Shown: positions 513 to 48,735 of the stretch, in pieces
How the letters are laid out: each line of letters starts with the position of its first letter
How positions within the stretch are numbered: position 1 is the stretch's first letter
Origin: Rhynchonema sp. JSB1_4
Taxonomy: Eukaryota > Nematoda > Chromadorea > Monhysterida > Xyalidae
Assembly: GCA_030248065.1 (NCBI GenBank)
Contig: JASAMV010007604.1
Coordinates: forward strand, 1 to 55,780
Direction: 5' to 3'
Length of the DNA stretch: 55,780 bases
Notes under the pieces: model-generated
Seen by the model: only the letters and a program-made list of their open reading frames with translations
Told to the model about the DNA's origin: nothing
Databases searched by the model: none
Position numbers and translations under genes: made by a program

Positions 513-3500
513 GATCCATACGCGGTCAAAGACGAGCAACCAGTTGTGCACATGCAGCACGAGGTAGTTGAGCAGGAGGACATGTCCGTCACCACGACTA
601 CAACAGCTGAAGGTTCCGTTTGTGTCTTATTGCTGATTTAGCGCGATTTTGCATTTGTCTACGAAAATACACAAGGCTGACATTCTGGTTTTATGCTCAT
701 GAATTTCACGTCATCGTAGAAAGCAGAATAACTGTGGGCGTTGTATTATTGGGGCTCTATCTTTTGACTTCTGTTTTTGGTTGCGTTCTACAACAGGAGG
801 GGGCGCACAATTTTCCGACTGAATGGTAACTTAGGTCCGCTTAAAGTGCCTCTACAATTGAATGTTGACCGCGTTTGTTTGCAGCGATTTTTTCAGAAAA
901 GGAAGACAAGGTGTCAGAAACCCAGATTTAGGGAATGGATTTTCAACTCGTTGCTTTGTGATGTTTCACGGAGCCAACATATTTTCACGGGAGGAGAAAA
1001 AATGAAAAAAGTTTGAGGCGGGCCTGTGCAAGACACAGGGTAATCCACTCTTAGATATTTTCAGCGTTTTATACACAGACGTTTCTCTGTTAAAGCTGCT
1101 GGTTAACAACCCTTCGACCGCGCTTGATCTTGGGGGGTAGTATATATAAACAAAGTTTGGACATCGTGTTACTCGACCCTAATCTGGTGAGCCGATTGGT
1201 TGCTTCCTGATGTTTCACGGCCACGTTGAAGTTTGCCCCTCGTGAAAAAAACCGAAAAAATTTGAAACGCTGCTGTGACACGAATAGGCTGTTTCAAAGT
1301 TTGACACTAGAGTGAGAGAAACCTCCAACAGTGTGCCGAAAACCGCAATGCACAATAGCTGTTGAAACGTCCGCATTGTTGAATAAAAAAATAAAAGGTT
1401 TCAAAAACCTGGCCATTTTTTGTTAGGATTTTCTACTCGTATAATTTTAAGCATCTGTGGTGAATGAAATAAGTTGTCAATTACAAATAAAAATCCTCTA
1501 ATTATCAAGTTTTTTGTTTGTGCTTCCCAGTTTTCAAAACCCTACACAGCTCACACAATGTTTACCACAACATGCGCAAGGCAGCCTTTCCAATGCGCAC
1601 ACACACAAAGCTGGCCAGCTGTGAAACATTGCTGTGTTATCGCTGTGCCGGCTGTGTATTGTCGTTGTGTGTGCGCTTTGAGAATGGCTGCCTTGCGCAT
1701 GTTGTGGTAAACATTGTGTGAGCTGTGTTGGGTTTTGAAAACTGGGGAGCACAAACAAAAAACTTGATAATTAGAGGATTTTTATTTGTAATTGACAACT
1801 TATTTCATTCACCACAGATGCTTAAAATTATACGAGTAGAAAATCCTAACAAAAAATGGCCAGGTTTTTGAAACCTTTTATTTTTTTATTCAACAATGCG
1901 GACGTTTCAACAGCTATTGTGCATTGCGGTTTTCGGCACACTGTTGGAGGTTTCTCTCACTCTAGTGTCAAACTTTGAAACAGCTTATTCGTGTCACAGC
2001 AGCGTTTCAATTTTTTTCAGTTTTTTCACGAGGGGCAAACTTCAACGTGGCCGTGAAACATCAGGAAGCAACCAATCGGCTCACCAGATTAGGGTCGAGT
2101 AACACGATGTCCAAACTTTGTTTATATATACTACCCCCCAAGATCAAGCGCGGTCGAAGGGTTGTTAACCAGCACCTTTAAACGAGATATAAAGCATTGT
2201 ACGAAACGCCAGGTTTGACAAATGATAAACGAAACACTCCAAAAAATCAAGCCTTTTTGAAGCACCCTTTTACTGCTGTATAATTTTAGGCATCTGTGGT
2301 AAATGAAATAAGTTGTCAATTGCAAATAACAATCCTCTAATTATCCTGTGTTCAGGATGTGCTTTTCGTTTTTCAAACCCCTACACAGCTCACACAATGT
2401 TTAGTACAACATACGCAAGACAGCCATTCCACAGCGCACACACAACGACAACACACAGCCAGCACAGCGACAACACAGCAATGTTTCAGCTGACAAGCTT
2501 TGTTGTGTGTGTGCGCTGTGGAATGGCTGCCTTGCGCATGTTGTGGTAAACATTGTGTGAGCTGTGTAGGGTTTTGAAAAACGAAAAGCACATTCTGAAC
2601 ACAGGACAATTAAAGGATTTTTACTTGCAATTGACAACTTATTTCATTCACCACAGATGCCTAAAATTATACAGCAGTAAAAGGGTGCTTCAAAAAGGCT
2701 TGATTTTTTGGAGTGTTTCGTTTATCATTATTTGTCACACCTGGCGTTTCGTACAATGCTTCATGTCTCGTTTATCAGAGAAACGTCTGTGCATAAAACG
2801 CTGAAAATATCTAAGAGTGGATTACCTTGTGTCTTGCACAAGCCCGCCTCAAACTTTCTTCATTTTTTCTCCTCCTGTGAAAATATGTGGGCTCCGTGAA
2901 ACATCACAAAGCAACGAGTTGAAAATCCATTCCCTAAATCTGGGTTTCTGATACCTTGCCTTCATTTTCTAAAAATATGGCTGCAAACAAACGCGGTCAA
3001 CATTCAATTGAAGAGTCACTTTAAAATCAAACCGAAACAGCCTGAAAGCTGCGGGTACGCCAGTGCTGGGGTACGCTGTTCATTCATCTATGTGTCCTGT
3101 CCATTTGTTGGCTCGTTTGGCAAACTATACACCAGTGGTGCCCAAATTAATCAGCACGAATTCAAAAAAAACAAGAGTTTAAATTAGAAAACCGATTTTT
3201 TTGCAGTTGAACCAGAGACGAGCAAGCCGAAAAAGAAGCACAGGAAGAAACGAGCCGATCAGCAGCAACACGCTGGTGCAGATGCATACAGCGCGTTGAC
3301 GATCAACGCACAACAGGCGTCGAGCTCGATGAGCCAACCACCATCGTCACCTACTTATGGTTAATTAACCCCCTCTCAAAGACCGAAATCCGTCGCATGA
3401 CCAGCGTTCAAAATAATTGACTGCATATTGCAAACTAATAAGGGCGGGCTTAGGTTAAATTGGAATCCGGAAATATTTCCGGAAAACGTATCATTTTTGC

Positions 3501-6500
3501 ATGTATGTTCTTGCGTTTTCCGGAAATATTTCCGGATCCTTAACCTAAGTTCGCCCTAAGAAATAAATCGAAGCGAAAAACACATTTTCAATGCGCAGGC
3601 CAAGACGCAGCTTCGGACACACACCAACTGCTTGAATCACTCACTCGGTCAACATTGAGTGAAAAAGAGAAGAACATTTTGGTGGAATGCGTGCTCGCCA
3701 AAGACGAACAGAACATCAAGGTTTGTGAATTGCTGGTTGATTTGCGTTTGTTGGCGATTGGTGTGCGTGATTGCGCCGGAAAGCAAATGGCAGCGCATCG
3801 GACAACGCGGCCTGCATTTGATACATCTCACGCTCTCCACCTCGGTGCGTAAACTCCCTTTTTGCCCCCAAAACGTGCGTGCTGTTCGCATGAGCACACC
3901 ACAAATTGAGGTCAGACAGTTCGAAATTGTCTTCATCGTTTTTAGATCCCTTGCTTCCTCCTTTCGGGAGAATGCGGGCCTTTATTTATTTTGAACATTT
4001 CATTTGGATGAGTTGGGACCAGTGTAGTGGCTGGGGGGGGATGGGGGGGATTCCGCCCCTAAGGAGTAGGTACCTTGCAACCACCCCTTGGGGGGGATGG
4101 GGGGGGCAGGGTAGGTACCTTGCAACCACCCCGGAGGGTACCTTGCAACCATCAATTTATGGTTTTTATAGGCAAAAATGGGTGTTTTTCGACCTCAAAA
4201 CCCCAAAAAATCGCGCGCTCCGCGCGCAAACCTCCATATAATAGTTATTTAAGCAAATTTTCGGCCAAAATGCAAAAAAGTACCAATTTTTCGGCCAAAT
4301 TTGCAGTATAATGCATGCAAAAAACACCCTTTTTCGGACCTCAGGGGTACCTTGCAACCTCCCGGAGGCTGGGTAGGGGGGTACCTTGCAACCATCTGGA
4401 TCCATCCCCCCCCAAGGGTACCTTGCAACCATCTGCCTGCCACTACACTGGTTGGGACACCCGTTTGTGATCAATAATGTGTACTAAAATATCTATGGAT
4501 AGCCATATCTATACGTGTCGAAACATTTCCGTTACTCCCGTGTGTGATAAAATTTGTCTATGCGACCTTCCCCCAGAGTTCTTAATTTTAGGGCCAGTTT
4601 GCGCCTAAAAAGTTGCTTCGAGCGAAATGTAAGAATTCTGGGCGTCCATTATTGGACCTAAACACCCGTTTTTAGTGCAACAAATGAAGGCGAAGATTGA
4701 CGAGAACCAAGACTATTCCCGCTTTTTAGATTGCAAAACTAACCAAATCAGTGGCGACCATGGAAAACGAGTTGGACAAGAAAACCAGAGCGCTCGAGCA
4801 GGAGGCCAAAGTGCTGCAGACGGCGCAGTTGCAGCGCAATGACATGCGGTCAGTGAACTTATGTGATGTGCTGCGGTTTTCCTTACAAATTTGTCCACTA
4901 GCCATCCGCCAGTGAGATCTAAAAATCTATTGGCACTAAGCCGGCTGTAGTGAACCACAGAATTCCACTGGTTAATTGGTTGGTAAACATGAAAATCCAC
5001 TGGGCTATCTGAAAAAAATCTAAGGTTAAAAAATCTGTGATCCTGTGTACGCTGCGGGCAATATCAAGCCCGGTGATCAGATCGGATCTACCTTGGTCAC
5101 CCTGGTCACGTGCGATTTTTGCATTAGGGATGACAATCGACTTCATTATACCACAAATTGCGACCAGCGTAGAAGTTGTTGTTCCCGGACAGAACCAAAG
5201 AGCTTTTACGCTGGTCGTGTTCAGTGGATGCAGTCAATTGCTTGTTATCGTGTGTGTGACCAAAGGCAGGTCCCATTCGGTCACCAAGTTCGATGCGACT
5301 CATGAAGACTTCAAGAAAGCTGATTCCACTTCACATTTCGGCCGCCTAATTTTGCAGCGCCGCGCTGGATTCGGAGCGCGATACGGCGCGTAAAATGCAG
5401 CATCAATTCAGCGAACAAATGACGCAGATGAAGAATGTGAATGTTGAGAAGGATCATCAAGTGCAGACATTGACCAGTCGACTGCAGGCAACGGCGCAAG
5501 AGAACAGCGGACTCCGGGACGCACTCCAGCGGATGCAACACCAACAACAGGTGCTTGCTGATTGTTGCGCTTTTGTTTTCGAATTTTTCCACCAGGCAGC
5601 CATTGGCGGGTAAATCTGAAAATCTACCAGCCAGAATAACAAAAGACACTAGCAAGCGGAGTAACGTTCAGAACTCGCCAGCGAAAACTGAAAATCTACC
5701 AGCCAATCTGAAATCCTTCCAGTGGGCAGTGGCTAGTAAAAATTCCCTCCCGTCTCTTGCCTCCCTGCGGTTTGTGGGTGATTATGATGTGGCGATGTTC
5801 CACTCGACATTTTTCACGTCAGTTTGCAGTCTTCGACGACTTGATATTGTCGCTGAAGGGGTTTCAACTTCAATTGTGTTTTTTTTATTTTTACTGGACA
5901 GACACATTTGATTATCATTTCGGTCAGTCACATTGCGCATATTCACATATGCGTCGGAACATTTCTGAATGTGGTGGATCTGAATGTCGATCCAACGTTT
6001 CGCTGCGGGCACTTGCACTTTTTTAACACCAATTTTCATTCAATCCTCCACCTTGATGCAGGAGCAACAACAACTACAAGCGCGACTGAGTCAAGCGGAG
6101 GAGCAAGTGCGTCGGTCGCAAGCCGAAACGGCCGCACGCGAGCAGGCGTTGCGTCAGAGCGAACACGCGTGCAAACAGCTGGAGAAGAATGTGCATGATC
6201 TGGGACGACAGCGCGAACAAATTGAGGTATTTTGGCCTGCGGTACAGTCCTGCCTGGTTATGAGCGTAATAACGGGAACGCAAGCACAATCCGAAATCTT
6301 TTTTTTGCTCTGAAAACGACACTGGCAACCGAACACAGGCTCTTTGCCTCGGATTGTACTTGCGTTCCCATTATTTATACAACATCGTGCACCGCCACAA
6401 AGCAAACCCACACGTATTTGTCTTCATGAGCGATATCAAACTTGGTGGTCGGATCGGATCGGACTGGTCCAGCCTTGGTGGCGTGACTTTGTTGAATTAA

Positions 6501-9500
6501 GGATATTGAAAAATGTGATGCCACTAATTTCGACCAACGTAAAACATGTTCCGCGACCTAAAATCAGAGCTGTGCAAACATATGTATGGTAACATATGTA
6601 TATTGTGACATATATTATTTTGGGATTACATATATTAAACAAAAATTTACATATATTATTGTATTAAAAAAAGCCTGCAACCTGAAATTGTTTGGCAAAA
6701 GGAACAAATACTGGCGTATATTATTTTGGCTCCCGAACAGGTCTGCCTAAAATGAGTAACATTTAAGCTGGACGACATTAGTACCTCCCTCCAGTACACT
6801 TCTTAATGCAAGAATTACGCGGCGCGACCAAGGGAAGTCATATCCGATCCGATCAGATTACCAAGTTTGATGCCGCTCCGAATGTCTTGTACGATCCACT
6901 AAGGCCAACAGGCGAGTTTAGAAATGATTCGTTGGCTCTAATTGCGGAACGCTCTACCTTTGCGACGCTTGAATGCGAACTGTATTTTCGAAACAACCTT
7001 CTGTAACTCGCCATATGTGTCGTGTGGTTGATTGCAATGTTTCGCGAGTCTTTCTTCAACATTCTCCCCTCTGAATTCCAGAAGCAAGTGTCAACCACCA
7101 ACGAAGACCTGAAATCGGTGAAGAACAAACTGCGATCGAAGGACGATGAGCTGGCTCGCCTACGAACAGAGCTGGATGCGCGAGACAAGAATCTGGCGAC
7201 GACCAAACGAGAGTTTCAGGTGCGTGCTGCGTCTTGTCGGAGTAGATCTTTGATTCTGTCTCTTGTGGTTTTCTATTATTTGTAAACCCAGCAGCTGAGC
7301 CGGATCGAACAATCATCCAATTATTAACGTCCGAGTGCTTTATGTGTGCAGTGGAACATTTTCACGCTTGGACATGTGGCTGCGTGAGCATTTATCGATC
7401 GTTTGTCGTCCCTTTATGTGTTCCATTCATTTTTTCATGAATATTCATATTTGTCGTCAAATCCAAATCACAGTTGCTTTTCGCGCTTGTGAAATCCGCC
7501 ACAGTTGTGACATGAGCTAATTGCTGAGTTTATTTGGGCCTTACCGACTGCGGCTGAACCGGCCAAACTTGTTTCTTTGTGTTTCTCGTCGTAAGTCGTT
7601 CCAACAAGGAGTTTGTCACACCTTTGTGATAACCTTAAATACGAGAGCCTCAGGTGCGTGGTTGGATGGAACTTGTTCTTTTGCTTTCGGGCTTGCACCT
7701 TGCAACCACATCTTGAGGGGGAGGGTAGGTAGCTTGCCACCATCACCGAGGGTACCTTGCAACCACCAACTTATGGCTCCGCGCGAAAACCTCCATGTAA
7801 TAGCTATCTTAGACAAATTTTCGGCGAAAATACAAAAAGGTACTAATTTTTGGCCAATTTTGCAGTACATTGCCTGCAAAACCCCTTTTTTCTGAACTTA
7901 GGGGTACCTTGGAACCTTCTGGATTCATCCCCGAAGGGTGGCTACCTTGCAACCATTTGCCTGCCACTACACTGTCTATGTATATCTTGAAACATTTTTT
8001 AGATCTGGGACATGTGTCTTGCTATTGCTTATCAAATACTTGGAGTTGTTTCTTGGCTCGTGATACGTAAAATATAACCTGTCTTGTGTCCAGTCTCAGG
8101 CTTAGGCTTAGGCTTAGGTTTTAGAGTTTTATGACATCCATTTTTTTGTATTATCTGCCCAGTGTGTTTGTGGTCATGGAGTTCCACCGCATCGAACGAT
8201 ATTTTCCACGTCCTGACTTTACGTCTACCTGAAACTTCTTTTTTCACAGATGTTCGTTGACGAATACAAACAGCTGGAGGCTACTGTGCGACATGTGAGT
8301 CCACAACAACAGACTGCGATGCACAATGGAGATGTGACTGACGGGGATAATGAAGTGGGTGGTGTTTTCGGCGATGTTTCATAGGCGGATGGACTGTTCT
8401 GTTCTGACGTTGTGGAAAGAGAGATGCTTCGAACGTTTTTATGTTTGAGAATTCTCACCCGACCAGCAAAGGCGTTGGCTGTGAGTCTGCGGCGCTGGTC
8501 GGGTGTCGAGGGAACTAGCGAAATATTCTCCAATCAAAATGTTGTGTAACAATTGGGGGTCGGGCAATCTCGGTTATCGGGTGAGACGGATTGGTGCAGC
8601 GAGTCTGTTGCCCCGGCGTGGATAAAAACGGATCCCAACAGGCACCAGTCACTGCAGAAAGCGTCGCGTCTGCTCAAAGACCTAACAGTGAGCTCGGAGA
8701 AGATCGCCGAACTGCAATCGGCGTTGACCAGCGCGCAATCGGCGCAACAATCGATCGATGCGCAAATGAGAGAGAAACAGATCGAATATGATGTTGCGAA
8801 ATCGTCGTTGGAAAAGGCGAACGCCGAACTGACTAGTGCTAGGGTGACGTTGAGTGCGAGCGAGAACAAAGCGAAACGGTGTGTGTGTTCGGCTAATTCT
8901 GAGGTGGTTGACTTATGTAGTTCACGTCAGATCGTGCGCAGCGCCTGTGTTCTCTTGCTTGATAGCCGGCTGAGAGGCCTGACATAAACGCAAAAATTCA
9001 ACCGTTTCTAAAGAGGCATGCATGAGATGCGTCGCTGACGTGTGTCAATCGCGATAAGTGTTATTTTCGTTAACTCGTCGGGATGAAGCGCAGAACTGGT
9101 CCTGACGGGGTAGTCCGAAATATGACAAGCATCACCGGTATGTTATAGAACATAAAATTTTGAGCTCGATCTACTTTCTAGTGTTGACGCGTTGATCGCC
9201 GAACTTGACAAGATGAAGGCCGAATTGGCGAATACGAGCCTGAAAGACAACGAAACGGTGACGAAATTGAACGAACGATTGAATGAAGCGAATCAACGAT
9301 GTGCTAAATTGCAGTGAGCGGACTGATTGATTATTTTTTTTCGGTTTACGTTTCGTGCTGTTCAGCGTCAGTCTCCACGTAGTGAACGTTTATATGGTGA
9401 ATCGCTCCAGATCATACAACGAACAATCATGTCCCAACTTAATGAAATTTTTCAACGCGGCGCTCTAAATTGTGAATATTCTTCATGGTGATCGAAATGG

Positions 9501-12500
9501 TCATGTCCCGTTCAGTTGACAGTTTAGGGACTTTAGCGCATGTGTTTTGAGGGAGAATGCGGCATACAACATGTGCTCCGATTGTATTTTGCTAACGTTT
9601 CCATTTCATAAAACTTCTATTCATCAAAACGGTTTAGATTTAGCCAGGGCCTACTGTTTCATATGCGTTCAAAACATTTTATCTTCCTTTTTGTGAGAAA
9701 TCCTTCGATTATCATTCGTTGCTGCAGACAACAACAACAAGCCGATTACGAATCGCGATCAACAGCTGAAACGAACGTGACGCAACTCAAATGTGAATTG
9801 GAGCGAATGGCTGGTGAAATGGCGGCGTTGCGCAAGACCAACAACGACCTGCACACGCAGATGGAGCAGAAAGTGCACAGGTGGGACTGTGAGGGCTGAT
9901 TGGAAATTGGGATTTCGGCCGTGTTTTGGTTCTTTGTTGTCAATCGAGCCTCTCTGTGATCCACCTCTCAACCAGGGTGGTCGCCAAAGTCTGTCGGTGA
10001 CCTCAAACTTACTGCCGTGTCCTGTTGTTGATACCTGGTGCCCATGAAGTCACCGCGTGCTGAGTGAAGAGTTTATCTTTGTGTCCAGACTGCTTTTCTG
10101 AAACAAGCACGTGAGCCGGGTCAATAGGATTTCGTGTTTTTTCCACAGTGCACGGTAGCACGGTAACTTTGCTTGCGTAAAATACCATCGTTTGGAAAGT
10201 GGAATACCGTTTCGAAAACAGGAAATCATAAAGAACGCACCACGTTTGCATGTTTCAAACATGGACATAACAAACGCGTGGTTAAATCGGTGTGTGTGTG
10301 TGTGTTTTGTTGGTGGCACACACAACGGCAGTGTCTGCTGAACAAAAACAACACACCTTTCATTTCAGTGATTTTCCGGAACTGTGGGCATTTTTAGTTG
10401 CGGGATGTTGTCTGTGACATATGAAGTGGGCTGGATATTTGTGTTTATAAACGTCAATGCTGTGGGGTGACGTTACACTTGCGCGCACACACCGCATTTA
10501 TTATTATTGCAAATTTTTTGTGTCTTGTCTCCACAATAATTTGTTATGATGCTGTAACGCAAGGGTGTTTTTCGCTGTACGTGTACAAATGCATTAGAAA
10601 TTATTGGTATGCAACAGATACGGCGCTAGCTGGGGACACGGCATTTTTTGCCGTTTGTCAATCATTGTACTTTTGATTGGTTTTAACGTTTCCGTTTTTG
10701 TAAGAGAACCTGGGCCGTCAGTGTGCCTTGTCTGCTCAGAAACGGTGTTTTGTATTCTGCACAAGCAGGGAAAAATGTAAGGAACACATCGACCTTCCGT
10801 TTCTTTATTCTTGTCTGTTTTCCCAGCACCTGCGTGTTTGGAGACTGACTAATGCAAAAAATCAGACAGCGACGTTGCGTAGTGAACAGTGTTCGAAAAC
10901 AGCTATAACGATGTCGTTAAGATGCGTAGCGTGCTGCGTCAATCATTGGGTGTCGACAATTTTTTGGACTTTTTTAATTTTCCAGCAGCCAGAAACATAC
11001 ATGGCTGTACAAGAACAGGTGTGGGGGAAATGTTATGAGAGCCGGACTGTGAGAATTGTGCGTAACACCGGTGTGGAGTGAAAGGCGAGCGATTGTTGTG
11101 ATAAGACATCATTATTGTTGACTGATTGTTTCATTTTGTGTCTGTCGAAACGTAGAAAGCGAAGATAATGTCGGCAGGGGAGGGGACCGTGTGTGATGTG
11201 AAGGTTGTCAGGATTGAAACCACCTTATTTGATCATGTGCAAGAACTAAAACTGCAGAACAATGATAAAATAGTATTCATAATCTTTCTCTCAGCCAACC
11301 GCTCCACGCCTCCGCGCCTTCGCCGGAAAAGGACACCGAGATTTCGCAGCTCAAGGCTCAGCTCGATGAACAGAAGAGAAAGAATCAGGTGAACTGGAAT
11401 GAATTTCGTGCGAATTATTTTTTAAATTCGTCTATTTTTCTCGCAGGAATTACGTGAACGCAACCAGAAAGCGGTCGATGCCGTTAAGGAAGCTGAACGT
11501 CAGAGTCAACTGGTGGCGCAACAGACTGAGGTTTGTGCAAACGAAGTCGTGTTTTGATTTTGGGGAATTGGGCTTTTCGGGTTTTGTTTGCATGTTTCCA
11601 AAATTATTTTTAGCGTTTATATTAGCTTGCTAAAAATGTTTTAGTTATGTTTCATAGTTGCTAACAAACAAATCTAAGTAAAGGTTTCAAAATTGGTGAT
11701 CGGATTGGCCCAGTCATCCAAAAATCCGTTGTATTTTAAGCCATCATGCTTAAGTCACCCAGTTGACGGCAAGAAGTCTTGCCCGAGCCTGAACGATCAC
11801 TAACTTTGTCCACCTACATCCAAACCCAGTCCATGTATGCCCCATATAGACCGTCTATAACCGAGTGTTGACTGATCACACTCACGAGATGTGCCGTATG
11901 ATCGAGGGTTTGGTGCCGAAAGAAGCGCTACCCAATGTTGCGTCCGTTAATTCCCCCGAGGTTCGTTGTGTCCAGCTACTGTATATGTGCGTACAGTCTG
12001 CCTTCTTTGTAGCGACCTTCTCTGAGCGATTAAGTTTTGAGCATGTTTTTTTTGTTCGGTTCTGTACAAGATTGTAACGTAACGACTGAAAATTGACGAG
12101 TTCGGCCGATCATGTCACGATGAAGAGCGTGGACTGTACGTAGCTTCGGTTCAATTCTGGGATGGGACTCCAGTTGAATGCATGAAACATCACCCATCAC
12201 ACTAACAGAGCGCCGAGCGTTGTCTGCAACAGACGAATCGAGTGCTGGCTGATTGGGTGCACAGACTGACGACCAGTGCGCAGCAACAACAGAATGCGGT
12301 ACGCGCGCACTGTTGCAACTCACAATGCTGATTTTGTCTCCGACATCTTTTGTACTTATTCCCTTTTCGGTGTATTCTAGTGTCCCTCGGACTCGGCCGA
12401 TATGGAGAAACTGCAACGACAGATATCGGAGTTGGAGAGGAGGAATCAAGTAAGATGGATGATGTGCGCGTGTGGCCTGGCTTCGCTTTGTGTTGCTTCG

Positions 12501-15500
12501 AAGTTTTGTTGCATGCGCAGTGCAGAAGTTCATGAAATGAGATAAAGTGTATACAGTTGCGCAACTAAATGGCCATAACTTTAACCTGTTTTTGTGTGGT
12601 GGTTGTTCTATCGTCATTTAACACTTTAACACGTTATAATATTTCTATCTTGATATTCGTCAACATCTGGCCAATTTTTAACAACACAATATTTGCAGCA
12701 ACTTCGGTCGCGTAACGCAACGGCGGTCGACTCTGTCAAACAAATGGAAGCGACCACGAATCAGATGGTTGCTGATGCCGAGGTAACGTCACTCAATTAA
12801 TAGTTGTAAACATATTTTTATTTTTTTAAAAAAATATTTTTTATTTTTGTTTCAAGTTTTATTCATTTTCAGAGCAAATACCAAACATGTCTCACCCAAC
12901 TGCAAACTGATCTTGTTGCCTTACTGTCACGCCTGTATCCCAACGATAACTGGCCGAAGGGCGGCTCCGATACCGGTAATATTGAGGTTAGCTGGATTGT
13001 TAATTTGTGATATTTTCCTTCTGGATATTTTAAAGTTCGGTTTTCGTTGTTTTTATCTGGTTTAACCAATGTTTGATCGTGTGCAGGCTCACTCCAAATG
13101 GTGGTCGCAAATGCAAAATGTGATGCAGAAAAATTTGAATGCCAATAAAACAGCGAATAAGGTTGGACATTTTTTTGATGATATCATTTTTTGCAAAAAT
13201 TTTTTCCTGTGGTTAAAAGCACCTCCATTTTTTTGTTCACAGAAATCAACGAGTGACGCGGATACGTCTGTGCTGCAAGAGCAATTGGACGCTTACAAGA
13301 GTGCAGTGACTGATTTGGTTAGCTTATCTTTCTTAATGTTGCCTTTACGTTGTGTGACCGCAGTTGAAAAGACAGCCGACATTTGGACTTGGTACCCATC
13401 GCTTTCTAATCCCAGTTACCGCGGGTTTTATTTCTTCTACAAGTCGCTCTTAATCCACGACAGTGAAACAAAATGACGAATATCTTTGAGAATCAAAAAA
13501 TCCATTTTAAATCAATTCATAGACAAACGATCTTGATCGACTGGAAGCGGCCGCAAGACAGCAGGAAGAAATGTGGCAGGATAAATACGAGCAATTGAAA
13601 CGATCGCGTGCAAGCAATGGGGGAAACGAACTGGAAAGTGTGAAGGTTTGTCGATGTCTGGTGAACGGAAGCGATACAACATTTGCAAAGGATTCAACTT
13701 ATTGGCCTATTGATGCCTTGTTGCGCTGCCGTGACGTTGTGATGCCTTTAATTGGGACCAGCGTGAAGCTTGTTCTCAGACTCGGGAAAAAACGTTGACG
13801 CTCGCTTCAAATTCTGAACTTGGCCAGTTCAATAATCTCGTACGAGCAAGGGAAGTCCAACTCAATCACCACGGGCCGTTTCAATTTTGATGACAAGGAT
13901 TGGTATGGACTTGGCTTGGGCACCGGCAAATTTTTTAGGGCTGTAGTTTTGTGATATGGCAGACGAATTTCGGCCAGCGTAAAGGTTTTTCATTTTTTGT
14001 GCAGGGGAACTACTTTTACGCCGGTCGGTATTGTAAGCCTACTCTCACTAAATATGGTTCGACCAAAATTTGCCGATGCCCAAGCGAAGTCCATGCCAAC
14101 GGACTTGCCTTTAGCGTTGATACGGCCCCAGATGATCTCAATCTCAAGTGTTATTCCGACCAAAATAAGGAATGTTTCGTTATTTATGTAAGTATGCAGC
14201 CTTTGACATCGACTATGTTCAGACGCATGCATGTCTTTGAGCCTGAAAAACAAAATTGAAAAATGTCACAGCCATTTACAGCGCGATTACGAGTCGAAAC
14301 TGTCGCAAATGCAACGTGAGATGACAGATTTGTTGCAACGCGTGTTCCCGGACGCGAAAATGCCCGCAAGCGTGACGCCCGAGGTCGAGGTGTACAGGGA
14401 ATGGCTGAAGGAGCTGGAGGTGATTGTGAAGCACACGCACACAACAACGACGATTACGGTGCGTTTGGGGCGCGTGCGCTTTGAGTGCTCGGGGATGACT
14501 GTCGATCTTCTGGACATACTGTACATAATCTGTGCGTCTCGTTTCAGAAAGATGGTGACGCGGCAGTGCGTGCTGAGAACGAACGGTTGCGCGCTGAAGT
14601 GACCAAGTTCGAAACCGCTATGGACGAACTGGTACGTTTTCGTGAGTTCAGCTATTTTGCCACACGTTTTGGCAGTGGGGGCTATCAAGGCGGCGAATTG
14701 AGTTGGTTGTTATCCCTGAACTGACGTCAATACTCTGAAAAGAACAAATCACCGACATATCCTTTGCTTCTGGACGCTTTTAGTTTGCCGCATATTTTTC
14801 TACGTTCCGGATTGTGTTTTGATGGATTTGCTTGCTTTCAGGTGCAGGTATGGGTGCGTGATCGATAATTGAGTAAGCCTAACGTGTGCATGTGATGTAA
14901 ATTTTTGCACATAATGATTCCACCCTCATGTGTTTATGTATCGGGTCAGTTGCATGCAGGGTGGTTAACTCAGATTGTTGACACAATCAAACGTTCGAAA
15001 ATGTTTTTGGCGAATGAAAGATTAAATTGTGTTAGTTGCTTATGTCGACGATTTATGTCAACCACTCAGCAATAAGCAGGACTGTATGTCTACCCATGTG
15101 TGTAGAGTCAGTATCAAAAATGATGGCCACCGTCTGTTCAAATTTATTATCCATACTGTCCATCTGGCACGTCTATATTTTACTTTCTGCTCCTCAACCA
15201 AACCAAATGTGAGTAGTTCCATTTTTTCAGGTCAAATCCAAGCTGGCCGAGCTCAAAGTGAAATTATCGACCGAAGATGGTGAAGTGAATATGTTGCGAG
15301 AGGTCTGTACTTGTTTGTGTCTCGAACTGACTGATGTTTCAACCCCAGCACAATTTTAAGTTGAAACCAGATTCAGCCGGATCTTTCTGTCAAGCCGGCT
15401 GATGTTTCACACCATCTATATAAACACGCTCATGGTTGCAGCAAGTGAGTGTGTTGAACGAAACGCTGAAGACCGAGCGTGACACCTGTCGTGACTTGTC

Positions 15501-18401: not shown

Positions 18402-19907
18402 ATGTCCATCCAGCCGCACCTGTCTATTCTGAATGGTCACAATGAGCGTCACATCTGTCAATTATTCGATCGAATCCTAGCCAAATTGCCGGACCCCGAC
18501 CATGAGCCCGATGTGCTAACCGATGATGACTTACAGCGACTTGTACGCAGCATGCAACTTGGTGGTCCAGCTGATGCACAAGCACTGGTGCATGCCTGTG
18601 TCCATATTGCACTTCATGTTGGTGGGGGTAATGGGGTTTTCTTAAAATTTTCCCAGCTTTGTAGCGACCCAGCGATCAGGTGTGCGACAGTCGCCACTTT
18701 TACTCGTTGTGTGAAACATTTGCGGCTCCAGAGCAGTGGTGTCGTTGAGAAATCGAAATTTTCCCATACCAAGCCCCATTTTCGGGAAATTTCCCATACA
18801 TACCCCCAAAAATCAAAAATTTCCCATACCAAGGGGTTTCTCCAAAAAATTCCCATACTCGAGGGGGTTCTGAAAAAATCTTCAAAAAGTACCAAAAAGT
18901 GGTCTAAAAATGCCTAAAACAGAGTTTTCTTGCCGCAACAAGCGATTTTTTTACATTTTTAGGCGAAAAATTGTCAATTTTGGTACTCCTCGGGGTCAAA
19001 AAGTCATTTCTTAGGGGTGATTGTTCCAAAAGTGAAAAATTTCCCCCCGCAACAACCCCCGCGACCCCCCCCCCCCTAACGACACCACTGCTCCAGAGTG
19101 AGTCTGACAGAAACGGCGGTTATCGATGTGCAGTTTTTGCATAGCTATGTGTACTCTTTGTACTGTCGTCAGCCCCGATCGTCAACAACCAAGCATATGT
19201 TTTCGCGTTGTGTTGACCACTTTAGTTGACGACTGTACGGTTAGCCAACATACACATGTTTTCAGTGCATCCGCGAAAATCTATCGCCAGAAGCAATGGG
19301 CACTTGGTTGCAATCACAGGATGTGGCCTCGTCACTTTGTGATGGTTTGATCTCAATCTACACGCGCAACCACCCCGATTTGTTGGCACGCGTGCGTGAA
19401 GCGAGCGGCAGCGAGACACAAGCTCGATTGGGTGGGTACACCCTGCTTGAAGTGACTGTCGTTTTGGGCTGATACTAATGTCGTGCGCGCAATGCATTGT
19501 TGAGCAGCGCAGAACCAGCGCGAGAAGTTACGCATTAAGTGTACGACATTAGTCTGAGCCGGTACGGTTTTCTATCCGCAGAAAAAACATTGTATGATAC
19601 TGTATATGTATGCGACGCTCTTTATGAAATTTTGTTTGTTGGAGGTTGAATGTTTGTACAACGGTCAGCTATTTCAGTGCGCCTTGAAACATCAGTGAAC
19701 GTCGACGTGAGCAGTGCCGATCGATACGCAATCAATGAACCAATGTTAATGGTCAGTTGCACCGTGAAAGAACCAAAATCGATCAATCACGAACCAGATA
19801 ATAAACCGATGAAAACACATCGATTCGAAATGGATTACGCGCAGCTGCTGAATGTTTATGACAGTTTGGAGGCGGTGCAAACTCAGTTGGATAAAATGAT
19901 GAAGTAG
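18402..19907 (+). CDS. COMMD10: COMM domain-containing protein 10-like
   Basis: Three exons in phase, 18402-18617, 19266-19431 and 19678-19907, give 203 residues; human COMMD10 has 202. The N-terminal helical part (QLFDRILAKL ... DDDLQRLVRSM ... SPEAMGTWLQSQDVASSL) aligns with the COMMD10 HN domain. The COMM domain starts about RLVRLETSVNVDVSSAD and ends with the family-typical LLNVYDSLEAVQTQLDKM. COMMD proteins form the Commander complex with CCDC22/CCDC93, which supports endosomal cargo recycling and cullin-ligase regulation. An AG at 18388-18389, 12 nt before the ATG, could be a trans-splice acceptor, though its pyrimidine tract is poor. The first intron carries a MITE. The next gene, PARG, starts 381 bp after the stop. 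Confidence 0.8.
18734..19090. mobile_element. hAT-like MITE, TSD CTCCAGAG
   Basis: The terminal repeats CAGTGGTGTCGTT / AACGACACCACTG have an exact 8-bp duplication, CTCCAGAG, at 18726-18733 and 19091-19098. The interior holds repeated TTCCCATAC units and no open frame of note. It is inserted in COMMD10 intron 1. Confidence 0.9.
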
Positions 19908-20287: not shown

Positions 20288-30662
<10,375 letters not shown>

Positions 30663-31638: not shown

Positions 31639-31688
31639 TTTACATCCGCTTGCTGTTACCACTTTGTTTTTGACAGCCTCGATGTCTA

Positions 31689-35829: not shown

Positions 35830-38800
35830 ATGACATCAACCAATTCAATTGACAGTGATTCCAACAACATGAATGTTCTCACAGTGGATTGCGGCGGTGC
35901 TTCGAGCAGTGCTGCCAGTGCGCACGTCGAAAACGTCATTTCGAATGAGCCACTGTATTTGAATGTTGGCGGCAAAGTGTTTGTGACCACAAAGGCCACC
36001 CTGACGCGCGAACCGCAGTCGGTTTTCACGGACATGTTCAAGGACAAAGTGTGTTTGTTGGTTCTTGTTCTAACAAGCTTGCTTATGATCACCGAACCAT
36101 TCCCCCTCGAAAAGAGTCGGGAAATCTTTCAGCGGCAATATTTGCGTAGTAAGTTGATTAATTCTCAAAGGTGAACTATTCAATTTTGATAAGCGACAAT
36201 TTTATCCCGTCCTATGACCGAAACTGACCTCGCACAACGGCCGAAAACACCGCATTTTCCAACTTACTGAGGACCTATAAAATATCCAATTGTGACTGAA
36301 AGTCGTTTTATCCCCTTTCCTTTTCAGGATAAATGGCTGATGACCAAATGGAACAAGGACAATCCAGTGTTTGTGGACAGAGACCCAGAGAGCTTCGTGT
36401 TTGTGCTTGAATATCTCAGGTTGGTCGAATCAGGCCTATTCCACAACTGACAGGGGGACACTGAAGCAAGGCGCCACGCCACAATTTGCAGCGAGCTGTA
36501 CGAGGCCCATCGATGATTGGGCGTTTGGGGCTTGACATGCAACGCATCGAAATAATCTTTTGCCGTGTGGCACAGTGAGGCAGAAGCCCTCGCCCTCGGT
36601 ACACCATCCCGCCAGATTTATCGTCGGGATCAAGTCTTTTCATCCGGCTGTCTTCCTGTGTACGCTTCACACATGACACGACACAAAGATATTCGGTGAA
36701 AATAACTTCCCGATGTTTCATAAACAGAAAATGCATCTGGACTGCAGGAATGGTCCAAACGCAATGATCCCACAAGACGAGTACATTTTGCGCAAGATAT
36801 CGGCGGATGCACTTGCGCTCAGGCTGGACTCGCTCAAGCAGTGGATCGATCAGAAATGGTTGTGGCAGGAGATGAACATTCAGGTGTGTTTGGCCGCCGC
36901 ATTGCTGCATGGAAGCTTGCGGCATGTACGTAGGTACGGTATAGCAATGTCAATTGTACAGCGATGTGCTTTTTGGTTGGCCGTGTTGACCTGCTTTCGC
37001 AGATGACGGGCGGTGCACCAGGTCATCGTCAGTGCGAATGCATTAGATGGCCACGTGACCCCAAAAAAGACACATACGAGCTGGTTTTATGCTCGCGTAA
37101 AACATCACTGCTGCTTTGCTGCAAGCAGGGTTGGGCAAAAAAAACGACGGCGTTTTTTCTTAAAAAAACGACGTTTTTTTTAAAAAAAAACGCCTGGGTC
37201 GTTTTTTCGTTTTTTTTAAATCCTGAATTTCCTTGATTTTCCCTGATTTTTCAGGGAAAGTACCCTGATTATCAAGGAAAATCAATTTTTTGTCCCATTT
37301 TTTTCAAAAAATGTTCGACCAATTTTTACTTTGTCGAGATACGTCGATATACGGAGTTTGACTTTCAGTGATGACCCCGGCCAAAGTTGGTCCCACGATG
37401 CGGGTCTGATATGGGATCTTAGCAACTCGCTAGAAAAGGGTTGAAACCTGTTTATTTTGCCTCAGAACACATAGAATGACTTCATTTAACCACGTTTTCT
37501 TCCCAACATGAGCGTTTTCCAATTTTTTTGGGGGCATATTTTGGTCATCTGGGCGTTTTAAAAAAAACGTTTTGCCCAACCCTGGCTGCAAGTACTTTTC
37601 TCTCCTTGGGGCTCTGCTCTGTATGGGGTAGTGTCTGATGCACATTTTCTCATTACTATTGTTCTTGTTGTGATCCTGTGCTTCTGAAATTCTTTTTGTT
37701 CTGGAACGTTTTGAACGATATTTGGTTGTTGCCGTTAACTTCCCAACTACTTCGATCGTCAATACCTACCGTATGGTCTTCAGGGCGGGTCCCGATCAGG
37801 GTTGAAAAAAAATTTTTTTATTAACGAGCTGTTTTTTATAAAAAAATTTTTTTTGATTTTTTTTGACGAAAATTTTTTTTATTAGAAAAAGTGTTGCAAA
37901 CGACGTTTCAGGATAAATGAAATCGATGCAACATATTTTTCAAAAATTGAAAAATTTTCGCCTGAGACCCAACTTGTGTGGTGACACCCGGTAGCATTGT
38001 GCAGATTCTATGGAATCCTACCAGTCTGAGGTTGATGTTCACTAACGATGTACTCTAATGTATGGTAGCATGCCGTACAATGTATTTTAATGCATCTAAT
38101 GCCGTATATCTGATATACGACCATCAAAATATCGATTACAGCCCAAATCTTGCGTGTCAGATCGACTTTGCGCGCCCGGTTTTGCACCAGACCTATGTAT
38201 ATACATGTGTAGTAGCATGCAGTGGTACATTATCGGTGCCACATCACTATAAAAGACCATCCCCGCGCATCCCTGTACGGATTTGGGGACAATACAGGGC
38301 GCCGCAGGCGCGATTTTGGAAAAATTGTCCCGTCCACAGAAAAAAAGTGCCAATTTTTTGCCTCGAAAAAGGCCATTTTTGGACATTTCAGCCCATTTTG
38401 GGCAACTTTCTTTTATTAAAAAAAAGCAAAATCTGAGTTTCAAAAAAAAAATTTTTTTTTTTAAAAAAATTTTTTTAATTAACCACTTTTTTTTGAAACA
38501 ACCCTGGTCCCGATCCTGTCACGTGGAGGGTAGAGCAGACTTCATTGGAATGTCCAGTGCGCGTGTTTGCTTTTGATGGAACTTTTCATTGCCCTAACTT
38601 GTAATTAGGTATGTAGGTATCTTGTTCATTTTCTATCCATTAAAAGCTTGTCCCCTTTTTCACGCACAGGTCTGGTTCTGCTACCAACGCGATACGGATG
38701 GGTTCAAGTCCGGCTTGCGCACGTCCGTTCGCTACGAGCTGCTGTTGCAGAATTGTGAACCGATCAGCAATCTGGCAATGTTGGTCAAGGAATCACTCGA

Positions 38801-39137: not shown

Positions 39138-39735
39138 AATTTAGAAATCTTGTTTCTAGCTGAAATCATGCACTTCGTTTGTTCAACGAGAACACATGTT
39201 GCCGTGCACGTGCATCTGCATTTAGTTTTACACATTGGAAGCAGCCATTTCCAGTGAGTGTGACTTGGGTGGTCAATATTCTTGTTTCTTATTGGACTGT
39301 TCATAAATAATTAGTGCTTGTCCCTTTGTCTCCGTCATAAAGTGCGAGATATATACAGTATGTACACATTCAGTTTTACCCACTACAGCTCCAAAGCTGA
39401 TCCAGAACAAAGTGTCCTCATGGTACATCAGATCCAGAAGTCTGATCCGCAATGATTCTGATCTTCAAGGCGACTCAACACGACTTTCCGATACATCATA
39501 ACGTCAGATCTGTCAGACCTGTCAGACCTCATTGGAGCTGACAAATTTCCATTATTTTCACCAATCTCCCGTCCACTTTTCTATACGGATTTCCACGCCT
39601 AAACTCTTGCATGTACACCAGCATTTGGTACTTTATTGCGTGCTCTCTTGGCACATTATGTGATCGATACCGCAGTCTGCGTGATGTTTCATTAACAAGG
39701 TGCTGTTGGAAAAAATGGATGAAATCGCCGACTAT

Positions 39736-40859: not shown

Positions 40860-41017
40860 CGCAGCAAAATTACAAGTTTACTATACCATGTACAGGCAAG
40901 AGTTCTGATTTGTTTCGGTCACAGTTGAAAAATGTGTTGGCTTCGCAGTGTACATACTTCACAAGACTAGTCTGCTTTCTCAATCCAACATACATACAGT
41001 ACAAGTAGAGTATCATC

Positions 41018-44240: not shown

Positions 44241-45188
44241 CAGGGTTGGGCAAAAAAAACGACGGCGTCTTTTTTGTAAAAAACGCGAGGGTCGTTTTTC
44301 GTTTTTTAATCCTGAATTTCCTTGATTTTCCCTGATTTTAGAGGGAAAGTACCACGATTTTCAAGGAAAATCAATTTTCTGTCCCATTTTTTTCAAAAAA
44401 TTTTCGACCAATGTTTACTTTGTCGAGATACGTCGATATACGGAGTTTGACTTTCAATGATGACCCCGGCCAAAGTTATGATGCGGGTCTGATATAGGAT
44501 GTTAACAACTCGCTAGAAAAGTGTTGAAACCCGTTTATTTTGCCTCAGAACACATACCGGAGTTTTCCACTTAAAGCCCCCCCGAATAGAGCCCTCGGGG
44601 GCTCTAAGTGGAAAATTTCCACTTAAAGCCCCCGGGGGCTCTAATTGGATTTATTTTTTTACGGACCATTGATTTTACATCGAACAGTAAACTTGCCAAA
44701 ATAGTTCAAACTAGTGTAACTAGAATGACCAAAATACCGCACTTTTCTGTTGTTTTACCAACGTTTTGCCACGTTTAGATGAAGATCCTCACAATCAGGT
44801 TGAAATATGGTATCAGAATGTCAAAATGCTGGCCTAAAGTGTCCCTACTGACAACGATGAAAACACCCAGTTTTCCGCTTAAAGCCCCCGAGGGCTGTAA
44901 GTGGAAACGTTTCCACTTAAAGCCCCCGGGGCTCTAATTGGATTTTTTCTTTCTGGTCGGAGGGTCCATTTTCCATCAATTTCCGCATAGAGCCCCCGGG
45001 GCTTTAAGTGGAAAACTCCGGTAGAATTACTTCATTTAACCAAGTTTTCTTCTCAACATGGGCGTTTTCCAACTTTTTGGGGCAGGTTTCGGTCATCTGC
45101 ACGTTTTTAAAAAAAACTTTTTTTAAAAAAACATTGCTTTTTAAAAAAACAAATTTTTTGAAAAAAAAACGTTTTTTGCCCAACCCTG
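44241..45188. mobile_element. hAT-like MITE, TSD ATGAAGCC, carrying a nested insertion
   Basis: Ends CAGGGTTGGGCAAAAA / TTTTTTGCCCAACCCTG have an exact duplication ATGAAGCC (44233-44240, 45189-45196). It is the same family as 37126-37584; without the 465-bp insert it would be about 480 bp. Confidence 0.92.
44557..45021. mobile_element. Nested TA-flanked MITE (Tc1/mariner-like)
   Basis: Perfect inverted ends CCGGAGTTTTCCACTTAAAG / CTTTAAGTGGAAAACTCCGG are flanked by TA on both sides. The sister copy at 37126 shows the empty site (CACATAGAATGAC). The interior repeats blocks of GGAAA..TTTCCACTTAAAGCCCCCG..GGGGCTCTAATTGGATTT near both ends. Confidence 0.9.
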
Positions 45189-45589
45189 ATGAAGCCATCA
45201 AGTAAAATAACTTTGTGCTGTGTGTGTGTGTTTGTCACAAGTTTGCCTGTTTGCAGGTAAGTAATGTTGTTTAGGAATAGTGATGTCATCGACGAGGTAA
45301 CGGTAGTGACCCGAAGCACACCATGGTTTGAAGTTGAAACCAGACGGTGTAAGATTGGGTGTCGGTGATATGTGTGTGTGAACGACAGTGTGATGGGATG
45401 AGATGATTTGGGGAAAAAAATTTTTTTCTCAGGTGAAACATCACCAGGCTGGATTTAGTGATTTTTCCCCACACCTTGCGTGTTAAAAACGGGGTTTTTG
45501 GTGTGAGCGCGTGCGTTTGGATTCTGATGATGTTTTGATTGTTTTTGAGAGATAGTCCGGTCGGTACAAAACGCTGAAAATTTCAGCAC

Positions 45590-46321
45590 GATCCACCCTA
45601 TAGAAAGGTGTTTTTTGGCCACCCGAAAATCGGCGTGTCCGGCGCTCCCACTTAATTGTGGAGATCTGAACTGCGCTAAGGAACCTGAATGGATTCGGGC
45701 AAGTCGTATATCGTTGGGTTTGGCTAGTGGTGGAGGCGTCGTAGAAGTATGTCCCAAAAAATAATATCGCTTCTATCGTGAGGAACTGGCCGGTGATGTT
45801 TCACCGAATTAGTTGGTGGACTAATGTTTCTGGTTGCTGGTGTGGTCGAGTGTGATTGATTTTGGCAGATGTTTTGATTCGTTTTGAGAGTAAGTCTGGA
45901 GGTTAAAAATGTGGGAAAATTTCAGGTCGGTCCACCTTATAAAAAGGGATTTTTGGGCCACCCAAAAATGGGGTGAAATTTGAGTGCGAGGGCAGGTATG
46001 AGAGGGTAGTATGGTTGAATGTTGATTGTGTTGGGCAATGTTTTGAGTGTTTTTGAGAGTAAGTCTGGAGGTTAACGACGTGTGAAAATTTCAGGTTGGT
46101 CCACCCTATGAAAAGGGGTTTTTGGGCCACCCAAAAAGGGGTGAAATTTGGGCGCGAGGCCAGGTTTGACAGGGTAGTATGGTTGAATGTTGATTGTGTT
46201 GGGCAATGTTTTGATTGTTTTTGAGAGTAAGTCTGAAGGTTAATGACGTGTGAAAACTTGAGATTGGTCTACCCTATGAAAAGGGGTTTTTGGGCCACCC
46301 AAAAAGGGGTGAAGTTTGGGT
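45590..46321. repeat. ~169-bp tandem repeat array, left part
   Basis: GGGCCACCCAAAAA recurs at a spacing of 168-169 bp (near 45957, 46126 and 46294), with a more diverged unit earlier near 45612. Each unit holds TTGGGCAATGTTTTGA and GAGAGTAAGTCTGGAGG. The array continues in the same orientation after 48864. Confidence 0.85.
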
Positions 46322-46834
46322 TTCGTTTCGTTTCGTTTTACTTTTCATGGTTATAACCACAAGGCATATGCGCAACATCAATATAATCATTGATAAAATG
46401 GATCGCATAACCTTATACTAGCAAAAAAACGTTTGTGATTATCGCAGTTCAGTCTCACAGTTTGCGATTTGAATGGTCAGGTGTCCAGAAACGGATTGTC
46501 AAACGAAACGTATGTACAAAAAGACACAGCAAAATGTCCAGTAATACTGACAACAGTGTCCAGTAAAAGAAAGAGTAATAATAACATTGCTATTTAGCTA
46601 GCAGTTATTCAGCACAAAGCAGGTTGGTTGATGGGCAAAGCGCGTAGCTAGCCTGGAACTGAGAAAATGAAAGCACTTGTTTTGTCAATGAAACATCGTG
46701 AGGTATACATACCTGATCCGACGGGACATGGGATATGGGCCTGAACGTGTGCATGTCACGGTAAAACAAAACGATCATGTCCTGAAAAGGGAATGGTGTT
46801 ATGACAAGAAAGACACACGTTACAGTTCATCGGA

Positions 46835-47836
46835 TCACACGTCGATTGATGGAATCATTGGAACTTTAAAAATTCCTACTTTATCGGTTACAAAGTCGAA
46901 CATCTGTTTTGAAGCCACTGCTCGTTTGAATTTGGAATAACACAAATCTATAACTGTTTGTGACAAGTTGTTGAAGGCAAGCGCGGTTGAATTCATCGCA
47001 CTGGCTTGATATCGGGTTGTGCTCGGTTTTGCCAACTTGATTGTTTTTGAATGGGCAATTCTTGAACTCGTTCGCACATCGCAGTCGCTCAATAAGGTGA
47101 ACAGGTCGGGAAGTGAGAATCGCAGCCCATACACATATTGGTACAATGTACACAGTCTAACTGTGAACACTTGTTGGTAGAATGGAACCCATCCAATTTG
47201 ATGAAGCATACTGTCATAGGTTGTTTCGTGTTCCCATTTGTTTAGTATCGCTCTACATGAAAATTTTTGTGTTCGTTCCAGGAGTGTTTGATCACATTTC
47301 CATATTGGATAGCTTGAGCCACATCCGTATAACATAACAGAGCGAAGCAAAGCAACGTACAAGCATTTCAAACTTTTCGGTATAGTGTCATTGGCATTCA
47401 CAGATGCACGATAATTCGATACAGTTTCATTGGCATTCACAGATGCACGATAATTCGGCACAGTATTATTGGCATTCACAGATGCACGATAATTCGGTAC
47501 AGTGTCATTGGCATTCACAGATGCACGATAATTCGGTACAGTGTCATTGGCATTCACAGATGCACGATAATTCGGTACAGTGTCATTGGCATTCACAGAT
47601 TCACGGCTTCCAACTGCGGATCGCACCAGTGTGCGTGGCACAATTGCCGTTTGTCTTAAATTCACACCAGCTCCAGCGAGCTTGGAGCACAGTGGCTCTC
47701 TGGTGGGTAGCACCAGTCTGCTTGCAAATCCACCCGACACTTTATCACAATTTGTGGTATCATCAATAGCATCGTCATTTGACATCAGTTTTGAGCGCAG
47801 ATGCTTTTCGACGGGCCGCACCAGTGTGCTAAGCAA
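46835..47836 (-). CDS. Retrotransposon frame B: repeats plus reverse-transcriptase tail
   Basis: 333 codons. Residues ~80-160 are about six copies of a 13-residue repeat of the type SVNANDTVPNYRA (39-nt direct repeats, 47394-47605). The C-terminal ~170 residues contain LYVALLRSVMLYGCGSSYPI and LLERTQKFSCRAILNKW, matching the thumb-side tail that follows the palm of non-LTR reverse transcriptases. The catalytic YADD region and the endonuclease are missing, so a deletion probably joined the leader to the tail. The start region overlaps frame A by 52 nt. Confidence 0.7.
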   Translation of the reverse strand: MLSTLVRPVEKHLRSKLMSNDDAIDDTTNCDKVSGGFASRLVLPTREPLCSKLAGAGVNLRQTAIVPRTLVRSAVGSRESVNANDTVPNYRASVNANDTVPNYRASVNANDTVPNYRASVNANNTVPNYRASVNANETVSNYRASVNANDTIPKSLKCLYVALLRSVMLYGCGSSYPIWKCDQTLLERTQKFSCRAILNKWEHETTYDSMLHQIGWVPFYQQVFTVRLCTLYQYVYGLRFSLPDLFTLLSDCDVRTSSRIAHSKTIKLAKPSTTRYQASAMNSTALAFNNLSQTVIDLCYSKFKRAVASKQMFDFVTDKVGIFKVPMIPSIDV

Positions 47837-48735
47837 ACCGTCTGAGTTTTTATCACTATTGGCAGCATTTTGACATTTTGAGCTGTTTCATTTGATTTCA
47901 AATTTGAACACATAGACTTTTCGACGGGCCGCACCAGTGTGCTAAGCAAACCGTCTGAAACATCAGTTCCTTTGGCAGATTTGCAATTTTGTGACTTGAC
48001 CGACGTTTGGTCGCGTTTACGACGCTTTTTGGTCATTCTGCGTTCAACACAAGCGTTGTGAGTCACATTCCTGCCATGTCTATCCTTATGCCTATTGCTG
48101 CCATTTTTGTAATGAACAGACCACTGACCGTCTCCGTTTTGATTCATGTCATTTTGATTAATTGGTTGGGTGTCAACATCACATGGCCATTTCTGTTCGA
48201 TTGAACGATTGTTTTGATCAGTGGCACAGTACGTGATCGGCATTGTCACACCGGTTGTTGTCGTCGGCATCGGTCGATACTGAGATATTTGAGTGTTTGA
48301 TACGGGTAATCTGCCATACATGGGCACCAGAGCGTATAGCCCGAACGGCGTGTATACTAATGGGTAGTTGGCGAACCCAATCTGTGCGTACATTGTGGAT
48401 ATGGGAGTTGAGACAGTGCCTATAACCCCACTATGTAGGTATGATACGTGTCGGTGCAGGTACACGTGCAGGCAGGCAGGAAAAACACTGCACAGCACAA
48501 AACAAAGCAAGCAAGGCAAGACCAAGAGTGTAAAGTAAAATGTCCCTCTCGCACCACACTGTTCACAGTGGTGCTCGATTCTCCTGTTGATCACTGTGTT
48601 GTTCGGTACCGGAATCAGTGACTGTTGGTTGACACAGATGGTGCTCGCCAACCAGCGTCGAAATTCGAAATTGAATTTTTGAGATTTTGACGCGTTGATT
48701 GAATGAATTTTGATGACGATTTGTGAAAAGAACAA
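47785..48735 (-). CDS. Retrotransposon frame A, possible ORF1-like protein
   Basis: 316 codons. It has a hydrophobic segment (FYFTLLVLPCLLCFVLCSVF) about residues 67-86, then a Pro/Asn/Gln-rich part and a basic cluster (RRMTKKRRKRDQ). Near its end LLSTLVRPVEK appears; the same peptide opens frame B in another reading frame, which indicates a ~120-bp duplication and a frameshift between the frames. No nucleic-acid-binding domain can be named. Confidence 0.5.
   Translation of the reverse strand: MFFSQIVIKIHSINASKSQKFNFEFRRWLASTICVNQQSLIPVPNNTVINRRIEHHCEQCGARGTFYFTLLVLPCLLCFVLCSVFPACLHVYLHRHVSYLHSGVIGTVSTPISTMYAQIGFANYPLVYTPFGLYALVPMYGRLPVSNTQISQYRPMPTTTTGVTMPITYCATDQNNRSIEQKWPCDVDTQPINQNDMNQNGDGQWSVHYKNGSNRHKDRHGRNVTHNACVERRMTKKRRKRDQTSVKSQNCKSAKGTDVSDGLLSTLVRPVEKSMCSNLKSNETAQNVKMLPIVIKTQTVCLAHWCGPSKSICAQN

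Follow-up and report, generated by a model that had tools for sequence, protein, structure and literature searches.

A U1-type promoter core abundant throughout a nematode genome, and its likely role in short piRNA-type genes

Introduction

The type-I piRNA genes of C. elegans (Ruby motif, PRG-1) have the promoter core CTGTTTCA. The loci described below resemble them in their predicted organization, with a GTTTC core about 40 nt upstream, a YRNT initiator, a 5' U, a pausing signal and a clustered arrangement, and differ from them in that the core is GATGTTTCA and belongs to a complete snRNA-type promoter.

The closest parallel comes from the plectids Plectus sambesii and P. murrayi (Beltran et al. 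2019, PMC6436959; here and below, the parts of that paper considered in this work). As here, piRNA and snRNA promoters are near-identical and of the Pol II type, the motif is bipartite and rich in information, the low-melting region lies further downstream, and PIWI is present. By that paper's text, however, GTTTC is the plectid 3' half and stands behind a conserved 5' half, whereas here it forms the 5' half, is followed by GAATGACTA, and has nothing strongly conserved upstream beyond GCTG. Copies of the core alone, abundant here, find no mention for plectids in those parts of the paper. The dispersed intronic piRNAs of the Pristionchus type (PMC6436959) are similar in that the window's loci lie in introns, those of a PARG gene, and different in that complete loci are clustered here.

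Several further features of published nematode piRNA loci are relevant. Transcription initiates 2 nt upstream of the mature piRNA; the fall of the low-melting region marks the 3' end of the piRNA precursor, about 10 nt further downstream in P. sambesii; and YRNT is mentioned for the SNPC-4-motif loci of C. elegans (all PMC6436959, in the parts considered). As to the distribution of the pathway, clades I to IV are listed without PIWI in the portion of Sarkies et al. 2015 (PMC4323106) considered, and the corresponding portion of Beltran et al. gives PIWI outside clade V in plectids only.

Here, we analyse a stretch of 55,780 nucleotides (the window) together with the 203.9-Mb genome from which it comes. 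We find that GATGTTTCA is an snRNA-type promoter core. Where GAATGACTA accompanies it, at about 600 clustered places that include two of the window's 23 copies, the sequence makes it probable, with some room for doubt, that it drives short piRNA-type genes; sampled copies that lack GAATGACTA show no piRNA signature.

Abundance of the word and the question of repeats

The window holds 23 exact copies of GATGTTTCA, spread from 960 to 47964 over both strands, and our recount thus agrees with that of an earlier note on this DNA. One hundred dinucleotide-preserving shuffles gave a mean of 1.14 copies (sd 1.03, maximum 4); the enrichment claimed in that note is therefore real, but its size is about 20-fold against such shuffles and not about 50-fold. 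The 8-mer ATGTTTCA preceded by another base accounts for 19 further copies (3 with C, 13 with A and 3 with T), where about 18 had been reported. In the whole genome we counted 46,647 copies of GATGTTTCA (23,427 plus 23,220) against 1,330 of the reversed word, a 35-fold excess. The density in the window, 0.41 per kb, is 1.8 times the genome mean of 0.23 per kb, so that the abundance of the word characterizes the genome as a whole and not a local cluster.

Genome-wide, the copies mostly take the form TGATGTTTCA, and most have no fixed partner. In the window, after removal of two palindrome mates, T stands before the word in 17 of 21 cases; in a 302-kb sample, made up of the window and the flanks of fetched loci with their centres left out, it does so in 63 of 73. 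In the same sample, single-mismatch variants stay within about 3-fold of chance, with the exception of those with A in first place. AATGTTTCA was considered as a sister class and set aside: many of its 44 unique copies belong to repeat families, and they show no clear downstream signal. A literature search on GATGTTTCA together with "nematode" returned unrelated titles among the matches listed.

Could a transposable element have spread the word? Four window copies do lie in a fold-back repeat, at 960..968 and 1209..1217 on the plus strand and, as their mirror copies, at 2897..2905 and 2054..2062 on the minus strand; the inverted arms that hold 960/2897 and 1209/2054 are 94% and 96% complementary, and the palindromic mirror pairs described earlier are thus borne out. 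The region from 841 to 3024 folds back in nested fashion, its arms being 152-345 bp long and 86-98% complementary; those arms that bear the word recur widely in the genome. Moreover, GATGTTTCACGG-N6-T has 1,274 matches in the genome, many of them inverted pairs about 830 bp apart among the matches listed. These matches amount, however, to about 3% of all copies, and the flanks of sampled core-only copies are unrelated. We consider spread by a transposable element exceedingly improbable. An origin in repeats was rejected on the same ground, being true of the four window copies and not of the sampled rest; membership in one longer repeat, a refuting condition set in the earlier note, applies to those four window copies only.

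Promoters of the snRNA genes

The identity of the word emerges from the snRNA genes. Among ten U1 matches in the genome, nine of them above the family cut-off, seven have ATGTTTCA 42-43 nt upstream of the gene. GAATGAC or GAACGAC comes next in six of these; the seventh (L026) has TATAAA at +16 instead. In one further U1 match (L027) the core has decayed and GAATGACTACCC is retained after it; in two others (L021 and L025) the core is gone. The nine U2 matches include one with the exact core and GAATGAC, five with the variant GAYGTGACA...GATAGACTA, two with a decayed core and, as the weakest, one with none. The four best U6 matches carry GCTGATGCTACAG and an AT-rich box. One full U6 gene (L017, contig C933) is adjoined by tandem U6-like fragments.

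GATGTTTCA thus forms the core of a proximal sequence element of the snRNA type. Both its sequence and its distance to the start, as in U1, are those of such an element, the site of SNAPc, and from what is known of these elements we infer that SNAPc would bind it. Most sites examined here differ from snRNA promoters in that they precede unrelated, unconserved sequence.

Complete promoters away from snRNA genes

The U1 promoter pattern, allowing up to 3 mismatches, occurs at 99 places, and GATGTTTCA-N6-AATGAC occurs at 251 places genome-wide; the reversed controls gave 0 in both cases. With GATGTTTCA-N5-GAATGAC and at most 1 mismatch, the number rises to 664 places, a few of them U1 genes, against 4 for the reversed control. 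Given the excess of the core, chance would account for about 65 of the 664 (46,647 x 22/16,384 plus a few), which leaves roughly 600 real near-complete promoters. They are strongly clustered: among the first 100 listed of the 251 loci, 70 pairs lie within 20 kb where about 2.5 are expected, and removal of four mirrored or duplicated contigs leaves 62 pairs against 2.2. On contigs C506 and C701 the promoter matches mirror one another in position (2902/36545 and 14193/26571 are examples), which suggests large palindromic contigs, real or an artefact of assembly.

The consensus of 47 complete loci, a set from which near-duplicates were mostly removed and which takes in one U1 gene (L023) and the window's site at 24791, is GCTGATGTTTCACGCGAGAATGACTA. 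No plectid-like conserved 5' half was found upstream of GTTTC, the maximum at -120..-4 being 0.28 bits in 52 loci.

What do these promoters transcribe? Since the loci were picked by their promoter letters alone, features downstream are independent of the choice. Of the 51 loci with an exact core and 6/7 or more of GAATGAC, 33 have a YRNT whose T falls at +47 or +48, against a background of 14% (binomial 1e-16), and the other 18 have none there. Copies with an exact core and at most 5/7 of GAATGAC have it in 8 of 66 cases, where the background is about 14.5%. (U1 and U2 genes and near-duplicates were removed for these counts, and fold-back copies were kept among the 66.) The fixed spacing of motif and start proposed in the earlier note is accordingly found in the complete loci and not in copies without the second half. 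Among 130 offsets tested for YRNT in 52 complete loci, the best two are +48 (20 loci) and +47 (14 loci), and the R of YRNT falls within 1-3 nt of the start expected from U1. Loci with one core mismatch have the initiator in 6 of 12 cases with 6-7 of 7 GAATGAC letters, 2 of 7 with five, 5 of 12 with four and 24 of 165 below that; with two core mismatches, the counts are 0 of 3 at 7/7 and 1 of 2 at 6/7.

The second feature is an A-rich block that begins about 25 nt past the start. Between +70 and +95, A makes up a fraction of 0.48 and 0.42 in the two complete classes, where the local values are 0.30 and 0.24; the excess gives t = 7.9 in 48 complete loci and t = 1.7 in 60 other copies. AT content in complete loci peaks at 0.71 about 40 nt past the start, against a background of 0.58. 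As far as sequence can tell, initiator and A-rich block together are the anatomy of nematode type-I piRNA genes.

Because the same promoter is used by U1 and some U2 genes, it might be argued that the complete promoters drive divergent SNAPc-dependent non-coding RNAs (snRNA-, snoRNA- or SL-like) and not piRNAs. We regard this as unlikely. The region from +26 to +70 shows no strong conservation in the 47 complete loci (at most 0.26 bits per position), the window has no Rfam match at gathering scores, and the YRNT initiator and low-melting block stand at piRNA-like spacing.

Sites in the window

The 23 window copies comprise one near-complete and one complete promoter (24791 and 27800), 1 partial one, 2 of a TATA type, the 4 fold-back copies and 14 core-only copies. 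A weight matrix built from 45 other loci, whose score is tuned to the complete form, gave 36.5 at 27800, 36.1 at 24791, 26.7 at 29048, 23.6 at 30480 and 15.1 at 45434; shuffled windows yielded 0.05 sites scoring above 15. The three strong sites (24791, 27800 and 29048) all lie on the plus strand in introns of a PARG gene, assigned by Pfam PF05028 with exon borders drawn by eye. The relatives of this gene have 37-49% identity, and the named ones come from many animal phyla, with none named nematode among the 120 matches listed.

The only window site that passes every sequence test is 24791. Here the near-complete promoter GATGTTTCACGTGCGCATGACTACC (24791..24815, +), with 6/7 of the GAATGAC half and two mismatches to the U1 pattern, is followed by a YRNT initiator (CAGT, 24836..24839, +) with its T at +48. 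Its position relative to the initiator predicts a 21-nt piRNA-type product with a 5' U at 24839..24859 (+), and an A-rich low-melting block (65% A) follows at 24861..24886 (+). The complete promoter GATGTTTCATGTGAGAATGAC (27800..27820, +) has the full 3' half; it has no YRNT at +47/48 (one has its T at +43), and its A fraction at +70..+95 is 0.35. The variant-core promoter GATGTGGCACGTCAGAATGAC (29048..29068, +) has GATGTGGCA as its core and so falls outside the 23; no YRNT occurs at +43..+52, and the A fraction is 0.35 at +70..+95 and 0.54 at +50..+75. The partial site (30480..30500, +), in the last PARG exon, combines the core with 5/7 of the 3' half and has no YRNT at +47/48. Also in the PARG region, at 24033 (+), TATGTTTCA stands without GAATGAC and yet has 0.62 A at +70..+95.

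The TATA-type sites recall the U1 variant L026. One carries TATATAAA from +16 (15401..15424, +); the other (L063; 25834..25855, -), with its core at 25847, has TATAAA at +16, an A fraction of 0.58 at +70..+95 and no YRNT at +47/48. Among 60 copies outside the complete and fold-back classes, three have TATAWA with the same offset of exactly +16. Perhaps GATGTTTCA-N7-TATAWA, seen at these two sites and at L062 and common to L026, is a second class.

Three core-only copies lie in PARG introns on the plus strand: 24223..24231, apparently at the 3' end of its intron, 25453..25461, with YRNT at +47 and 3/7 of the 3' half, and 30182..30190. Elsewhere on the plus strand are 8373..8381, 15333..15341, 36712..36720, 39683..39691 and 45795..45803. 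Those on the minus strand are 12183..12191, 19685..19693, 21818..21826, 45434..45442 (4/7 of the 3' half), 46689..46697 and 47956..47964, the last (A fraction 0.54 at +70..+95) within a stop-to-stop frame of 326 aa without a Pfam match. That frame and another of 350 aa, likewise without a Pfam match and with internal tandem repeats, occupy 46835-48765 (-) and look like a repetitive or mobile gene. Two repeat copies rich in GGTACCTTGCAACC lie at about 4020-4440 and 7690-7975.

Copies without the second half

More than 98% of the genome's GATGTTTCA copies (over 45,000) lack the second half. Extended to the genome, the earlier note's view would make all 46,647 half-motif piRNA genes, in the manner of C. 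elegans Ruby motifs. The word is indeed sharp, the flank preference CTGATGTTTCAC is common to complete and core-only copies, and in the window 25453 has its YRNT at +47 and 25847 and 47956 have A-rich blocks, which chance may have yielded among copies without the second half. In the sample, however, such copies have the initiator at background level, as the 8 of 66 above attest, and no A-block on average, and in 63 core-only copies no position between -100 and +160 exceeds 0.2 bits except within -5..+9. That all copies are piRNA genes is therefore very unlikely, although in a sample of about 60 copies a functional minority below roughly a quarter, by our estimate, could go undetected.

Alternatively, the core-only word may be a genome-wide element in its own right (of chromatin, recombination or a transcription factor), its overlap with the SNAPc core being due to descent or chance and the piRNA promoters being a separate minority. 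Its 35-fold excess throughout the genome, the near-chance level of single-mismatch variants (A first excepted, and much of that repeats), and the occurrence of copies in exons and introns with no fixed partner all speak for it. Against it, sampled core-only copies favour the same flanks as the complete, piRNA-type promoters (T at -1, C at -2, G at -3 and C at +9). We find this reading possible, if doubtful. Our own preference, no more than a guess, is that the core-only copies most probably represent half-sites for SNAPc that lack a fixed start.

PIWI, Argonautes and the nematode setting

A Piwi profile search of the genome gave 54 exon matches on 17 contigs, and exons of 13 of these contigs were examined for Argonaute type. 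An exon on C1663 (QGTVTPVSYNIL...YKLCHLYYNW) scores 59 bits to the solved "Protein piwi" (6kr6) and 24 to argonaute-2. The genome thus encodes a PIWI-type Argonaute, the gene that the earlier note had proposed to look for. Two contigs outside the 13, C4595 and C3368, match the same Piwi profile segments as C1663. By their signatures, the other 12 contigs examined appear to comprise eight AGO/ALG-like ones, three divergent WAGO-like ones (L102, L103 and L108) and one without a clear type.

That the genome is a nematode's is supported by 15 matches to PF01060 and 698 to (TTAGGC)4, both nematode-typical, and by an ALG-type Argonaute that has 90% identity to an Onchocerca protein (next best 83%, annelid). 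Telomere-type TTAGGC repeats are frequent inside contigs, often paired 30 bp apart, as at about 8096-8130 in the window. No SL1 sequence turned up in the genome even with 2 mismatches allowed, so the sites observed are not canonical SL RNA promoters. In a complete assembly, this absence would also argue against clades III-V.

Implications

How might the complete loci work? SNAPc would bind the complete element, and Pol II would start at the R of YRNT, about 45 nt downstream, run about 25-30 nt and then pause at the A-rich low-melting stretch. A short capped RNA would be released there, and trimming would turn it into the 5' U product that PIWI takes up. Directly supported parts of this scheme are the identity with the U1 promoter, the initiator, the A-block, the clustering and the PIWI gene.

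For the window itself, the idea of a dispersed cluster of 23 piRNA genes is not supported: 24791 has all the features, 27800 has part of them, and the word occurs throughout the genome. What survives of the piRNA reading is the nematode setting, the PIWI gene, a promoter core shared with U1 and, in complete copies, an initiator at the expected spacing; most of the 23 fall outside it.

These results tie an over-represented word to an snRNA promoter and to piRNA-type genes by sequence alone, with a control built in (complete against core-only copies). They are relevant to two questions: how snRNA promoters gave rise to the piRNA genes of nematodes, and whether other nematode lineages have retained PIWI. 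If the species is plectid-like, its piRNA loci would be largely known in kind; otherwise it represents a further lineage. As a conjecture, and one we rate as rather improbable, a nematode that lacks SL1 and perhaps belongs neither to clade V nor to the plectids, groups beyond which the surveys cited give PIWI as lost, may keep ancestral piRNA genes with whole U1-type promoters; the more than 45,000 half-sites around them, one per 4.4 kb, would offer SNAPc a genome-wide platform.
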